Shown one piece after another: positions 13,648 through 18,857 of a stretch of DNA of 64,000 nt (the stretch's first letter is position 1; every line of letters begins with the position of its first letter). The notes below the pieces were generated by a model. It did no database searches, had not been told where the DNA came from, and was given only the letters and a program-made list of their open reading frames with translations. Both the position numbers and the translations under genes were made by a program. The stretch is from Betaproteobacteria bacterium (GTDB taxonomy: Bacteria; Pseudomonadota; Gammaproteobacteria; Burkholderiales; Rhodocyclaceae), in contig WRMF01000006.1 in the NCBI GenBank assembly GCA_009777245.1, forward strand, positions 1-64,000, given 5' to 3'.

Positions 13648-14250
13648 CTAGCCGCCCTGCCAGCAGGCGCGTTGTTTGCTGCCTGTTTCACGCCAGGGCA
13701 GGAGGTTTTCCGTCGCCAACCTTGCGGCAAGCTCCGAGAGCGCCGCTACGCCGCCTGCCGCATCCGGCGATGGCGTCATGACGGTACGGAAAAATCGCGC
13801 CTCGTCCTCCAGCCGTCCTGTCTTTACATGCCAGACTTGCGCTTCAAGCGCAATCACGGCAAAACTTTGATCCGGCGCGGAAAAGACCTGTTCAAAGCGG
13901 GTCAGGTTAAGGACAAGCTGGCATTGATCTTCCGCGCCCTCCGGCCAGAACAGATAATGCGCCAGATGTCGGCTCAAAATTTCAGCGGGCGGGGAAATCC
14001 AGCGGGAGCGGGAATAGGTCAGAACCTCCGCCCCTCCGGCGGGCTTGACATACTCCAGCCGGTAGCGCATTGCTTCATCCGCCAGGTCGGAGCCGGAGCG
14101 CACCTCGAATTTCCAGGCGCGGCGGGAATCATCCACGGTCTCTGCCGCAGGCCCCGCGCCCAGATCAAACCGGCCAATGTCCGCCGCCGGGTCTTGCCGG
14201 ATGGAGCAGGCCGACAGAAGAAAGAAGGATAAAAACAGGAAAACTTTCAT
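13648..14250 (-). CDS. ABC-type transport auxiliary lipoprotein (PqiC/DUF330-like)
   Basis: A lipoprotein of 200 residues. The start chosen, two bases after the MCE gene stop, opens a signal peptide MKVFLFLSFFLLSACS with lipobox LSAC; the longer open frame upstream lies inside the MCE gene. The body (RYRLEYVKPAGG, YSRSRWISPPAEILSRHL, and the LVLNLTRFEQVF strand) resembles the auxiliary lipoproteins that pair with MCE proteins in PqiABC/Mla-type phospholipid transport. The ATPase and permease genes that usually precede the MCE gene are missing here. Confidence 0.75.
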   Translation of the reverse strand: MKVFLFLSFFLLSACSIRQDPAADIGRFDLGAGPAAETVDDSRRAWKFEVRSGSDLADEAMRYRLEYVKPAGGAEVLTYSRSRWISPPAEILSRHLAHYLFWPEGAEDQCQLVLNLTRFEQVFSAPDQSFAVIALEAQVWHVKTGRLEDEARFFRTVMTPSPDAAGGVAALSELAARLATENLLPWRETGSKQRACWQGG

Positions 14251-14252
14251 GG

Positions 14253-15155
14253 CTATTCCGGTATTGCAAACCCGGCCTCGCCGGGTCCGGGACGCGCGGG
14301 CGGCGCCCCGAAAATAAGGCTTTGCGGGGAACGTTCGATCATTTTCAGCGTCCTGTCCAGTTGGCGCAGGGTCGTTGCAAGATCGCGGCTTACCGTGGAG
14401 ATTTGCGGCATCAATTCTTCGCCCCAATCGCCTCCCTGCTTCAGCAGGCTGTTCAGACCGGCTGCCGCGTCGTCCACGCTTGCCACCATTTGCCGCGCTT
14501 CTTCCACCAACAGGGGCATTTTCTGCATGGCATCCGACATGGAGTTAACATTTTCGGCGGAAAGCATTTGCTCCATTGAGGCGAGCGCGCGATCAGCCCT
14601 GGCGCTGGCTGATTCAAATCTGGCCAGGGTGGCGCTGAAGTGGCGTCTGTTTTCCTCGTTCAACAAGGCATTGGCCTGTTTCATGAAATGCCGCGCTTCG
14701 CCAAGCAACTCCGGCAGACTGTCCTGCAACTGGTTCATCAGGCTCGCGCGAAGCGGGATGCGCGGCAACTGCCCGGAGATGGTGTGCGGCAGCGGATTTT
14801 TGCTCTCCTCGTCATCTTCAAGCATGATCTTGGCGACGCCGGTAATGCCTTGATAGGCAAGACGCGCGCCTACTTCATCGCCAAGCGGCAGGCTTTTATC
14901 CACCTGCACGTGAATCAGAATATCGCGGCGATCCTGCGAGTCGAGCCGGATATTCAGCACCTTGCCTACGTCAATTCCGCGATAACTGACCCGAGCCTGA
15001 GGCATAAGCCCGTCAATGTTTTCCCGCGAGACCACGATCAGCTCCCTGAATTCCTGATCGTCGGCTGAGCCAAACCAGTACAGGAAAAATACGGCAGCCG
15101 CCCCCAAAAAGAGCGTAAACAATCCGGCCAGAAATGCGTTGGCTTTACTTTCCAT
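14253..15155 (-). CDS. MCE/MlaD-family lipid transport protein
   Basis: Inner-membrane-anchored periplasmic protein of 300 residues. One N-terminal membrane helix (FLAGLFTLFLGAAAVFFLYWF) is followed by a single MCE domain (residues 38-115: NIDGLMPQARVSYRGIDVGKV, AYQGITGVAKIML). A long helical tail follows (140-280), ending in a Pro/Ala-rich stretch. MCE proteins form hexameric tubes that carry phospholipids across the periplasm. The following lipoprotein is its likely partner. No mlaE/mlaF homologue is adjacent; upstream lies a hemerythrin gene on the same strand. Confidence 0.88.
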   Translation of the reverse strand: MESKANAFLAGLFTLFLGAAAVFFLYWFGSADDQEFRELIVVSRENIDGLMPQARVSYRGIDVGKVLNIRLDSQDRRDILIHVQVDKSLPLGDEVGARLAYQGITGVAKIMLEDDEESKNPLPHTISGQLPRIPLRASLMNQLQDSLPELLGEARHFMKQANALLNEENRRHFSATLARFESASARADRALASMEQMLSAENVNSMSDAMQKMPLLVEEARQMVASVDDAAAGLNSLLKQGGDWGEELMPQISTVSRDLATTLRQLDRTLKMIERSPQSLIFGAPPARPGPGEAGFAIPE

Positions 15156-15181
15156 ATTGATTTTCGGAATACGATGTCAGC

Positions 15182-15658
15182 CTACCAGAATTTCCACCAG
15201 GGGGATTTTGTCTGCTTTTTGACGGACGAGCTGGATTTTTTCGACCCGCCGGCATCTCTTTTGTGTTTGAAGAACACGCCGTATTTCGCGTCCTCGGAGA
15301 GAATATGCTTGGTCAGCCAGTTACGCAGGAATTGCAGCAACTCGAAGCTGATCGCGGCTTGTCCGCTGGCGACTTTTTGCTGCAACGCATCCACTTTTTC
15401 AAGCAGGGATTCATGGTGCTTGCAGTGTTCTTCGTATGCCGGATACTTGCCGACGCGCATCAAGGTCTGCTCCAGCGTGAAATGCACGCGGGTGTAATCC
15501 ACAAGTTCCGCAAGAATGGTCTTGCAGGCGGAGCTGCCTTCATGGTTCATGATGGCCTGATGCAGCTTTTCAGCCATGGCGAACAGGTTTTTATGTTGTT
15601 CGTCAATTTCGTCAATTCCGACGCTGTACTCATCTGACCAAATAAACATATTGCTCAT
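15182..15658 (-). CDS. Bacteriohemerythrin
   Basis: Single-domain non-heme di-iron oxygen-binding protein of 158 residues. All ligands of the four-helix bundle are visible: H22 (DEQHK), H59 and E63 (HFTLE), H78 and H82 (HCKHH), H118 and D123 (HILSED). A Ser/Lys-rich tail ending SPWWKFW follows the domain and is not part of the fold. AGGAG precedes the ATG. The likely role is O2 storage, delivery or sensing in a cell living at low oxygen; the substrate process is unknown. Confidence 0.95.
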   Translation of the reverse strand: MSNMFIWSDEYSVGIDEIDEQHKNLFAMAEKLHQAIMNHEGSSACKTILAELVDYTRVHFTLEQTLMRVGKYPAYEEHCKHHESLLEKVDALQQKVASGQAAISFELLQFLRNWLTKHILSEDAKYGVFFKHKRDAGGSKKSSSSVKKQTKSPWWKFW

Positions 15659-15782: not shown

Positions 15783-17189
15783 ATGTCGCTTTCTTCCCGA
15801 CAAATCATCTTTGCCGGATTTTTAATCGTCACCGCCGTTTTGGGCGCGGTCATCCTGCAAAGCGACCAGCAGCTGGAACGTCTGACGGAACGGAGCCAGC
15901 ACGTCAGGCAGCAGGCGTTTTTGCTTTTCACCGCATTGCAAAGCCTGGACGAACGCAGCGTCGACCTGGAACGCAGCGTCAGGCAATACCACCTGACAAG
16001 GCAAACAGCCTATCGCGCCAGTTTTGATGTGACGCTGGAGCAAGCGCTTCTTCTGATAGAGCGATTGGAGCAGCAAAAAGAGCATATTCCGGGACTGGAA
16101 CCGTTGCTTGAACCTTGGCGCGCCACTCTCCACGGCCTTGCCGACAGTCTGGGCACGGAGACAGAATCTGCCTTCATTGGCGCATCCTTCTCCCATCTTG
16201 CCGAATTACGGGTCAGAATGCGGCAAGTCGGGCAACAGTGGGTAGACGAACAGGAGAATCAGATGACTTCCAGATTGAGGCTGGCTCTCCAGTTGCAAAT
16301 CATGCTTCCCTTTCTTGGCTCGGTTCTGGTCGCGTTTTTCATCAGCCGTTGGCTGACCCACACCACCCGCAAGGTGAAAAATTCCATAACCCGGCTTGAG
16401 CAGGGAAATTTCGACGAGCCTATCGCCATTACCGGCCCGTCGGACATCAAGCGTCTGGGCAATCGCCTGGATCGGCTACGGACAAGACTCATGGAATCGG
16501 GCGATTTCAAGGAAGAAATCCTGCGTCATGCCGAACAGGTATTGAAGGCGCGGCTTTCTTCCCTGCAAAACAACGTTGACCTCTTGAACGAAGGAAGTTC
16601 CGGCTCCGCCGACAACAAAGTGATTGGCGTTCTCTCAAGCAATCTCGACAGCCTGAAAAAACTGGCGGATTACCTTAGCATGGTCATCAAGCTATTTTTT
16701 GAGGAGCGCGGCGTACAGAAGCGGCGCGTCGGGCTTGGCGATCTGCTCGCCCGTATCGTGGAGAGCCAGAACGAGCACCCCCGATTTTCCGAGGTCAAGG
16801 TTCGCGTGGATTGTCCGCCGGAAAAAGAGGCATGGCTGGATACGGAAAAGGTTGTCTCTGTAGCAGGCCATATTTTCAAAAACGCGCTTGATTTCGCCCC
16901 TGCGGGCGGCGAAATCAGACTCTCGGTCTATCTGGAAGGGAAAACCATCGTGCTGGAATGCCTTGATCAAGGGCCTGGCATTCTGCCTGACGATGCGCCG
17001 CACATTTTTGAACCTTTCTACCGCGACCGTTTCAATCCCTACGACAACGCGCCTGGAGGCAGGATCAACCTTGGCATTGCAAAAGAATTGGCTAAAATCA
17101 TGGAAGGCGACATACAATTACTGGATGCGTCCTCCGGCGCGCGTTTTCGCGTCACTCTGCCTTATGAACCGTTTGCCTTGAACCGTTAG
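15783..17189 (+). CDS. GlrK/QseE-like sensor kinase with degenerate phospho-acceptor site
   Basis: Membrane sensor of 468 residues: a membrane helix at 10-28, a periplasmic helical region to about 165, a second membrane helix (IMLPFLGSVLVAFFISRWL), then HAMP. The expected HisKA region reads ILRHAEQVLKARLSSL. Aligned with the GlrK motif SHELKTPL, the phospho-acceptor His is Gln and the conserved Glu and Pro are lost. The ATPase domain is well kept: N box FKNALDFAP, G1 DQGPGI, F box FEPFYRD, G2-like GGRINLGIA. The next gene is QseG-like, as in glrK-qseG-glrR operons, but glrR is absent and ybgC-tolQRA follows. It may bind ATP without standard phosphotransfer, act as a partner subunit, or be decaying. 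Confidence 0.82.
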   Translation: MSLSSRQIIFAGFLIVTAVLGAVILQSDQQLERLTERSQHVRQQAFLLFTALQSLDERSVDLERSVRQYHLTRQTAYRASFDVTLEQALLLIERLEQQKEHIPGLEPLLEPWRATLHGLADSLGTETESAFIGASFSHLAELRVRMRQVGQQWVDEQENQMTSRLRLALQLQIMLPFLGSVLVAFFISRWLTHTTRKVKNSITRLEQGNFDEPIAITGPSDIKRLGNRLDRLRTRLMESGDFKEEILRHAEQVLKARLSSLQNNVDLLNEGSSGSADNKVIGVLSSNLDSLKKLADYLSMVIKLFFEERGVQKRRVGLGDLLARIVESQNEHPRFSEVKVRVDCPPEKEAWLDTEKVVSVAGHIFKNALDFAPAGGEIRLSVYLEGKTIVLECLDQGPGILPDDAPHIFEPFYRDRFNPYDNAPGGRINLGIAKELAKIMEGDIQLLDASSGARFRVTLPYEPFALNR

Positions 17190-17196
17190 CCGCCTC

Positions 17197-17766
17197 ATGA
17201 ACCTTTCTCTTTTACGCCTTGGCTTGTTTCTTCTGGCTTCGTTCCTTGCCGGATGTTCCCTTTTGCCTGCCGACAAGAGCGAGGACAGAGAGCGGGTATA
17301 CCCTGAGGCGGCAAGACCCGCCATAGTCGACCGGGTGGGCCATACGCCCGCTGCGCTTCTTTCCTACTATCACGCTCTTTCCTTCTTTTCGGCCAGCGAG
17401 CTGTCGCGGGAAAAGGAGCTTTTGTTTCAATCCGGCGACGCGCCGGATACCCGGCTGCGTATGGCGATGGTGATGGGACATCCGCTTCAGCCAAACCCGG
17501 AATTGAGACGCGCCGCCTTCATCCTTGCCGATCTCATGCAGGCTCGTGATTCGGTCAGCTACTATCTGCGCCCGATAACCCAGGTGCTGGCGGTTTCCTA
17601 TAATGAGCGGTTGCGTCTGGAGCAACAGATAAGGAGGCAAAACGCGCAACTGGAAAAACAGCACATGCGTATTTTGGAAGCGCAGCGTCAATCCCGTGAA
17701 TTAGAGGAAGCCCTGAAGGGTCTCGCCGACATCGAGCGTTCCCTGCCCAGGGCGCGCAATCGTTGA
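17197..17766 (+). CDS. QseG/YfhG-like outer-membrane lipoprotein
   Basis: Lipoprotein of 189 residues with signal peptide LGLFLLASFLAGCSL (lipobox LAGC). It is helical, with a YYHALSFFSASELSREKELL segment and a C-terminal coiled coil (about 135-185, rich in Q, E and R). Sequence pattern and position seven bases after the GlrK-like kinase match QseG, which interacts with the kinase periplasmic domain in enterobacteria. The response regulator gene that normally follows is missing. Confidence 0.75.
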   Translation: MNLSLLRLGLFLLASFLAGCSLLPADKSEDRERVYPEAARPAIVDRVGHTPAALLSYYHALSFFSASELSREKELLFQSGDAPDTRLRMAMVMGHPLQPNPELRRAAFILADLMQARDSVSYYLRPITQVLAVSYNERLRLEQQIRRQNAQLEKQHMRILEAQRQSRELEEALKGLADIERSLPRARNR

Positions 17767-17769
17767 GTC

Positions 17770-18183
17770 ATGCCTGATTTCACCATGCCCGTCCGCGTCT
17801 ATTACGAGGATACCGATGCTGCCGGCGTGGTGTATTACGCGAGTTACCTGAAGTTTTTCGAGCGTTGCCGAACCGAGTGGATGCGCGCCATCGGGCAGGG
17901 GCAGCGGGAGTTTCTGGAGTCAAGCGGTCTTGTTTTTGTGGTGAGGCGAGTTGAATATGATTATCTTGCTCCTGCCAGGCTGGATGATCTTTTGTCCATT
18001 CAACTTTTCGTGGAAAAAGTGGGACGCGCCCAGGTGGTTTTGCGTCAACGCGCCTGTCTGGGGGACAGGATTCTGGTGGATGGCACGACGCAGGTTGCGT
18101 CCATAAACCTTGCAAAAATGAAAAGCGCCCCCATTCCCGACTGGTTACGCGCCGAACTCACGGCGCAAGCGGAGAACCAATGA
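17770..18183 (+). CDS. ybgC: Acyl-CoA thioesterase YbgC (tol-pal associated)
   Basis: Hot-dog fold thioesterase, 137 residues. The signature VYYEDTDAAGVVYYASYLKFFERCRTEW contains the catalytic Asp of the YbgC family. It sits three bases after the lipoprotein gene and overlaps tolQ by four bases (ATGA), the canonical ybgC-tolQ arrangement. Its cellular role is thought to be in phospholipid metabolism at the envelope; the exact substrate is unsettled even in E. coli. Confidence 0.95.
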   Translation: MPDFTMPVRVYYEDTDAAGVVYYASYLKFFERCRTEWMRAIGQGQREFLESSGLVFVVRRVEYDYLAPARLDDLLSIQLFVEKVGRAQVVLRQRACLGDRILVDGTTQVASINLAKMKSAPIPDWLRAELTAQAENQ

Positions 18184-18857
18184 ACGTAACTCAAGACCTT
18201 TCCATCCTTCAGTTGATTCTTGATGCCAGCGCCGTCGTTCAGCTCGTCATGGCTGTTCTGGTCTGGATTTCCTTCACATCCTGTTTCTACATCTCTGTCA
18301 AGTGGTTTACGGTGCGCGACGCCAGGAGGAAGACCGAGCAATTCGAGCGTGATTTCTGGTCGGGCGGCAATCTTTCCAGTCTCTATGATCAGGCTATCAG
18401 CCGCAGCCATCGCTCCGGCAGCATGGAGCGCATATTTGAGGCGGGTTTCAGCGAATTTACCAAGCTGAAGGGACAAAAGGGGCTTGAAGCCAGCGATATA
18501 ATTGGCGGCATTCGCCGCGCCATGCGGGCTACTTTCCAGCGCGAGGTGGACGCTCTTGAATCCCATCTTGCCTTTCTTGCTTCGGCGGGTTCGGTGTCTC
18601 CCTATATCGGGCTTTTCGGCACGGTCTGGGGCATCATGCATGCCTTTCTGGCTCTTGGCAATGTGGGGCAGGCCACCCTGGCTTCCGTCGCGCCCGGAAT
18701 CGCCGAAGCCCTTGTCGCCACGGCTGCGGGTTTGTTCGCCGCCATTCCCGCCGTGCTTGCCTACAATCGTTTTTCGCACGATATTGACCGGCTTGCCATT
18801 CGTTACGAATCCTTCATGGAAGAGTTTTCCAACATTATCCAGCGTCAGATGAGGTAA
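18180..18857 (+). CDS. tolQ: Tol-Pal system proton channel subunit TolQ
   Basis: Inner-membrane protein of the TolQ/ExbB/MotA family, 225 residues. There is a first membrane helix around residues 17-40, a long cytoplasmic part, and two C-terminal helices (LAFLASAGSVSPYIGLFGTVWG; PGIAEALVATAAGLFAAIPAVLAYN) containing the conserved VWGIMHAFLALG turn. With TolR it uses the proton gradient to energise TolA during cell constriction. The downstream gap to tolR (174 bases) is unusually long and holds a repeat. Confidence 0.96.
   Translation: MNVTQDLSILQLILDASAVVQLVMAVLVWISFTSCFYISVKWFTVRDARRKTEQFERDFWSGGNLSSLYDQAISRSHRSGSMERIFEAGFSEFTKLKGQKGLEASDIIGGIRRAMRATFQREVDALESHLAFLASAGSVSPYIGLFGTVWGIMHAFLALGNVGQATLASVAPGIAEALVATAAGLFAAIPAVLAYNRFSHDIDRLAIRYESFMEEFSNIIQRQMR

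Follow-up and report, generated by a model that had tools for sequence, protein, structure and literature searches.

What does a sensor kinase transmit once its phospho-acceptor residue has gone? The question is raised by the open reading frame at 15783..17189 of the window, which here means the whole stretch of 64,000 nucleotides that was analysed. An initial annotation had described the product as a GlrK-like kinase with no His in its HisKA segment, with intact ATP-binding boxes, a QseG partner and no GlrR gene, and had proposed that it may be a pseudokinase sensor attached to the tol operon, with protein contact as the means of envelope signalling. Below, "the genus" is the genus of the source genome, of which 20 genomes were searched, and "others" are other genera of the same family; G numbers denote genomes (G000 is the source genome) and L numbers denote loci. 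The kinase gene, its parts and the genes given downstream of it lie on the plus strand.

The encoded protein (468 aa) was divided into an N-terminal transmembrane segment, a helical periplasmic sensor, a second transmembrane segment with HAMP domain (residues 186-236; 16338..16490), a DHp (dimerisation/phospho-acceptor) region (residues 237-310; 16491..16712) and a HATPase_c (CA) domain (residues 353-462; 16839..17168). Its top match was PDB 9m08_C (residues 4-461, E 5.7e-26), which ranked first of 33 PDB sequences and above all other histidine kinases; E. coli GlrK was matched at E 9e-33 in a 3-protein search. 9M08 is listed among the entries of a QseG-QseE study in its data-availability section (PMC12691602). 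On its sequence, the reading frame is a full-length QseE/GlrK relative. Pfam returned HAMP (PF00672, 26.5 bits) and HATPase_c (PF02518, 58.5 bits) above cut-off and no other domain. HisKA (PF00512) gave no match in the window kinase, even at E<=10; it scored 13.6-20.4 bits in four other genus members, under the cut-off of 26.9, and 38.6 bits in the intact relative L065. An AlphaFold2 model built from 34 sequences (mean pLDDT 84) retained DHp and CA, and its structure matches were ordinary kinases, with DivL (4q20_B; Z 20.2, rmsd 6.6, 212 residues) among the close ones.

The segment ILRHAEQVLKARLSSLQ of the window kinase was aligned without gaps to FLRHLSHELKTPLASMR of QseE (PDB 9m08_C) and E. 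coli GlrK, which placed Gln252 (codon 16536..16538) in the column of H259 of those proteins. H259 is given as the phosphorylated residue of QseE in a figure legend (PMC12691602) and QseE-H259A is reported as inactive in E. coli (PMC6075780), so that in the closest characterised protein loss of the acceptor residue ends phosphate signalling. For comparison, a family sample of 150 genomes yielded 84 genomes with a kinase match at E<=1e-25, four of these in the genus, and a separate search over the 20 genus genomes yielded 13 matches; the compared set comprised 13 genus sequences plus 81 sequences from 80 genomes outside the genus, one of which has two copies. His occupied the acceptor column in 81/81 others, and Gln (11), Glu (1) or Arg (1) did so in the 13 genus sequences. 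The next position held Glu in 10/13 genus sequences; the proteins of the window, G152 and G158 have V, G or T there. At the +4 position, occupied by Ala256 in the window kinase (codon 16548..16550), Thr was found in 81/81 others and in 0/13 genus proteins, which have A, V, M or L instead. A Thr or Asn four residues after the His is regarded as necessary for the phosphatase reaction of bifunctional HisKA kinases. The reported T428A variant of RetS (PMC5992135) agrees with this rule.

A genus-profile search of 395 family genomes ranked the 13 genus members first, and the 15 next-ranking non-genus loci that were read all carried RHVSHELKTP. When the tree was computed with the motif columns removed, the 13 grouped in a single clade (100/100). 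Three changes in the acceptor column sufficed on this tree, consistent with one H to Q replacement and two later changes of the Gln, to E and to R, each in a single lineage. Misalignment of the H-box was ruled out, since the alignment to QseE is gap-free there and 93 relatives agree. Sequencing error and genome-wide decay were ruled out as well: 13 genomes concur, and among the 13 histidine-kinase matches listed for the source genome, window gene included, the seven others checked (L002-L008) all keep the acceptor His. The initial reading of a lost His was in this way borne out by the alignment with orthologues. An invariant His column was sought in the genus alignment and none was found, so no substitute acceptor is apparent; His249 was rejected for this role because several genus members have Tyr at that position.

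The ATP-binding boxes were intact only in part. The N-box Asn (Asn367; 16881..16883) was present in 13/13 genus and 81/81 other proteins, and the D box DxGxG (DQGPG, residues 395-399; 16965..16979) was intact in 13/13 genus proteins; on these two boxes the initial annotation stood, but not on the G2 box, which is degraded to GGRINLG in the window protein (residues 425-431; 17055..17075) and reads mostly GSGLGLS/A in non-genus proteins. The lid residues 417-424 had pLDDT < 50 in the model. The third G2 position (column 427) is Gly in 11/13 genus proteins, and the G146 protein has an intact G2 box. In the proteins of the window, G152 and G061 this box is degraded, which makes nucleotide binding there uncertain.

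The cognate response regulator was sought next to each kinase. A sigma-54 response regulator adjoined the kinase in 79/81 non-genus loci (61 read directly and 18 placed by coordinates; the remaining two run off the contig) and in 0/13 genus loci. It lay downstream of the kinase in 61 of the 63 non-genus loci with long flanks, at 58-100% identity to a reference GlrR in 45 of the 61 and at 40-54% in 16 (one partial); the reference itself has GlrR as its best NCBIfam model at 599 bits, under that model's cut-off of 763. No such regulator was found downstream of the kinase in the 13 genus loci within the 1.0 to 10 kb examined (more in the window), and no GlrR was found in the window or the source genome (93% complete), nor at orthologue level across the 20 genus genomes. 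The orthologue threshold was reached by 69/150 family genomes and by 0/4 genus genomes among these 150. NtrC-family proteins occur in all 20 genus genomes, the best full-length ones being 40-46% identical and NtrC-like. Relocation of GlrR elsewhere in the genome was ruled out at orthologue level, and the absence noted initially at the locus could be extended to 0/13 loci and 0/20 genomes at that level.

The source genome encodes two sigma-54 response regulators, neither best-scoring as GlrR. One directly follows an intact kinase; the other (G000:C20:10544-11986, equivalent to L211:4045-5487, minus strand) lies near a phage integrase, had no histidine kinase in the 10 kb examined there, and could be an orphan regulator. 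Separately, the 16 loci in which a regulator at 40-54% GlrR identity adjoins an intact GlrK-like kinase (L104, L107, L111, L113, L114, L121-L123, L125-L128, L139, L143, L147 and L148) suggest a second branch of the system in the family, and genome G099 carries two GlrK-like kinases (L116, L147), each with its own regulator from a different branch.

The lipoprotein partner has been retained. The gene at 17197..17766 begins 7 bases after the kinase stop and encodes a QseG-type outer-membrane lipoprotein with the lipobox LAGC and the C-terminus LADIER, which corresponds to LTDIER of E. coli QseG; this LxxIER motif is kept in 11/11 genus rows aligned (13 found). The lipoprotein gave no match to the PDB QseG chains, profile search included, and none to E. 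coli QseG by phmmer, the C-terminal motif alone being alignable. Its probable identity as QseG, the partner named initially, rests on its position next to the kinase, the lipobox and the C-terminal motif. On the kinase side, the docking segment DLERSVRQ (residues 61-68; 15963..15986) is the counterpart of QseE E67-Q74. QseE R70A is reported to abolish QseG binding and R73A to weaken it (PMC12691602); the counterpart of R70, Arg64, was found in 13/13 genus sequences and that of R73, Arg67, in 11/13 (Gln in 2), while Glu63 and Gln68 were present in 13/13. Two further QseE contacts have been replaced, L78 by Val in 12 genus sequences and Thr in the window, and D80 by Gln in 13/13. Kinase and QseG occurred in the same 13/20 genus genomes and were both absent from the other seven, a co-occurrence that is partly one event because the genes adjoin. 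Five of the seven genomes are < 90% complete and two are of high quality (G151, G154); the pair is thus dispensable in the genus.

Selection on the kinase was estimated as dN/dS (Nei-Gojobori) in seven genus pairs and five control pairs of active relatives, picked for closeness. The kinase reading frame is open in 13/13 genus members, at identities down to 33% with the window protein. Genus pairs gave 0.20-0.32 for the whole gene, 0.20-0.42 for CA and 0.20-0.50 for DHp; active control pairs gave 0.06 to 0.34 for the whole gene and 0.01-0.13 for DHp, so that the groups are separated by DHp and not by the whole gene alone. By this measure the genus kinase is under purifying selection, and its values above those of three of the five control pairs indicate that part of the protein is relaxed. 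Identity was then compared by domain over 13 genus and 21 other sequences (78 and 210 pairs) with matched overall identity (50.2% and 50.9%). The periplasmic domain and DHp were 54.8% and 40.7% identical within the genus, and 39.1% and 68.6% among the others; DHp exceeded the periplasmic domain in 4/78 genus pairs vs 210/210 other pairs. This inversion indicates a shift of constraint away from the domain of catalysis and regulator docking and towards the sensor.

Downstream of qseG the window carries ybgC (Tol-Pal thioesterase; 17770..18183; TIGR02799 above cut-off), 3 bases after qseG, and tolQ (18180..18857; TIGR02796 above cut-off), which overlaps ybgC by 4 bases. With such spacing (7, 3 and -4 bases), kinase, qseG, ybgC and tolQ likely form one transcript, and in the window lineage the pair is probably co-transcribed with ybgC-tolQRA. 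The same order (divergent hemerythrin gene, kinase, qseG, ybgC, tolQ) was found in G152, G158 and G061. The tol genes are located elsewhere in the other branch of the genus, and the pair there lies downstream of an ABC ATPase (seen in L051 and L055, two loci read gene by gene) or of other genes; attachment to tol is therefore a feature of one branch. A functional tie to tol across the genus was ruled out accordingly (4/13 loci), and the proposed attachment to the tol operon is correct for the window, G152, G158 and G061 but not for the genus in general.

Further features of these neighbourhoods were recorded. The divergent upstream block of the window (13648-15658) encodes an ORF with lipoprotein-like N-terminus, an MCE/MlaD protein and a bacteriohemerythrin, and is conserved in G152 and G061. 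In G159, a 2102-aa ORF resembling a CheA-type multi-Hpt kinase (L051:12689-18997, minus strand) lies ~2 kb from the pair, and a relative of it is found near the pair in G146. Genomes G151, G153, G154, G160, G164 and G165 contain ybgC-tolQR without kinase and QseG; no remnant of either was found upstream of ybgC in the stretch searched, and a tolQ tree gave support too weak to order the losses among kinase-less genus genomes.

Loss of both acceptor and response regulator from a kinase that is kept under selection together with QseG suggests that signals now pass through contact instead of phosphate transfer, and contact between proteins is the likeliest output of the pseudokinase. We consider it moderately probable, from sequence comparison, that the window gene encodes a QseG-gated pseudo-histidine kinase with a contact output on a putative partner. 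The "pseudokinase sensor" of the initial annotation would then describe a trait conserved in the genus (13/13 without His), kept with QseG and without GlrR. The following course of events is proposed. In the genus ancestor or soon after, glrR was lost from a QseE/GlrK-type system; the kinase lost its acceptor His (H to Q once, with later changes of Q to E or R) and the +4 Thr, as the comparison shows. QseG, the helical periplasmic domain with its docking Glu-Arg-x-x-Arg/Gln-Gln and HAMP have been retained under selection, as the sequences show, along with a predicted folded DHp-CA body. QseG would still dock on the periplasmic dimer, as the conserved contacts suggest, and its binding may shift HAMP and so reshape the DHp-CA body; this body would bind a putative cytoplasmic or membrane partner, e.g. 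another kinase or a regulator, with no phosphate transferred. No candidate for the cytoplasmic target of this body was found. The wider proposal, that in the genus the three-component phosphorelay QseE-QseG-QseF has been turned into a phosphate-free two-protein device in which QseG allosterically drives a dead kinase body and the state of the envelope reaches a putative cytoplasmic partner by contact alone, has in our estimate an even chance of being right.

A specific form of the contact-output reading holds that the protein acts only as a regulatory heterodimer, pairing with one of the cell's intact kinases and modulating it. This is possible though rather doubtful: DivL (PMC4211667), RetS with GacS (PMC5992135) and the ChrS pseudokinase with HrrS (PMC9491836) provide described precedents, and further kinases of the source genome retain the His, but no close paralogue is present (best own-genome matches 21-33% identical) and the domain that determines dimer specificity, DHp, shows the lowest conservation of any domain within the genus. 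It is unlikely that the pair is kept mainly as a trans-envelope tether, physically bridging the outer and inner membranes or sensing the distance between them, in which DHp-CA only holds the dimer and nothing is signalled to the cytoplasm. A mere anchor would need neither a full-length CA, nor N and D boxes invariant in 13/13, nor the dN/dS of 0.20-0.42; what speaks for the tether is that QseG-QseE is reported as probably capable of reaching across the entire periplasm (PMC12691602), that conservation within the genus is now highest in the periplasmic part, and that the pair of the window lineage sits with tolQRA, another trans-envelope machine.

Slow decay, with the kinase a relic on its way out after the loss of GlrR, is improbable. 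The 7/20 genus genomes with neither kinase nor QseG, the relaxed DHp and the loss of the G2 box in some members would fit such a course, but all 13 reading frames are open despite identities as low as 33% to the window protein, dN/dS is well below 1 in every domain, and QseG and the QseG-docking residues are retained. That the protein serves another response regulator as phosphatase or acceptor through a non-standard residue is very improbable, in spite of the retained CA domain and of the reported dephosphorylation of QseF by E. coli QseE (PMC6075780), given the loss of the +4 Thr in 13/13, the lack of an invariant His in the genus alignment and the lack of an adjacent response regulator.

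The preferred reading, a QseG-gated pseudokinase acting by contact, was compared with described systems. With QseE-QseG-QseF (GlrK-QseG-GlrR) of Enterobacteriaceae and relatives, as described (PMC6075780, PMC12691602), the window kinase shares full-length homology, the HAMP-DHp-CA layout, a QseG-type lipoprotein gene beside the kinase and the QseG-docking residues; it differs in that 13/13 genus loci lack the acceptor His, the +4 Thr and glrR/qseF. A 2025 survey describes qseG as consistently placed between qseE and qseF (PMC12691602), and the genus is an exception to this picture, with qseF gone and the kinase dead. DivL of Caulobacter likewise conserves the histidine kinase fold without the acceptor His, and is described as having neither kinase nor phosphatase activity; it carries Tyr at the acceptor position, has PAS domains and is a binding partner of DivK~P (PMC4211667), whereas the window kinase has Gln at the site, a periplasmic helical sensor and a lipoprotein partner. 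RetS of Pseudomonas, which is reported as unable to autophosphorylate and acts on another kinase by contact, has lost the HATPase G boxes and kept phosphatase and receiver chemistry (PMC5992135), whereas the genus kinases have lost acceptor and phosphatase Thr. The ChrS pseudokinase of evolved Corynebacterium glutamicum is an inactive kinase that does better than the deletion and heterodimerises with a second kinase (PMC9491836); it arose by a laboratory frameshift in CA, whereas the genus kinases are a natural, genus-wide family.

No report of a GlrK/QseE pseudokinase was found in the open-access literature searched. To our knowledge, natural pseudo-histidine kinases have rarely been documented as whole families with matched active relatives. 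In the present set, 13 dead kinases are set apart from 81 intact relatives by acceptor, phosphatase Thr and response regulator together, and conservation flips from output to input. The contrast between them isolates the effect of an accessory lipoprotein on its sensor once phosphate transfer has been removed.
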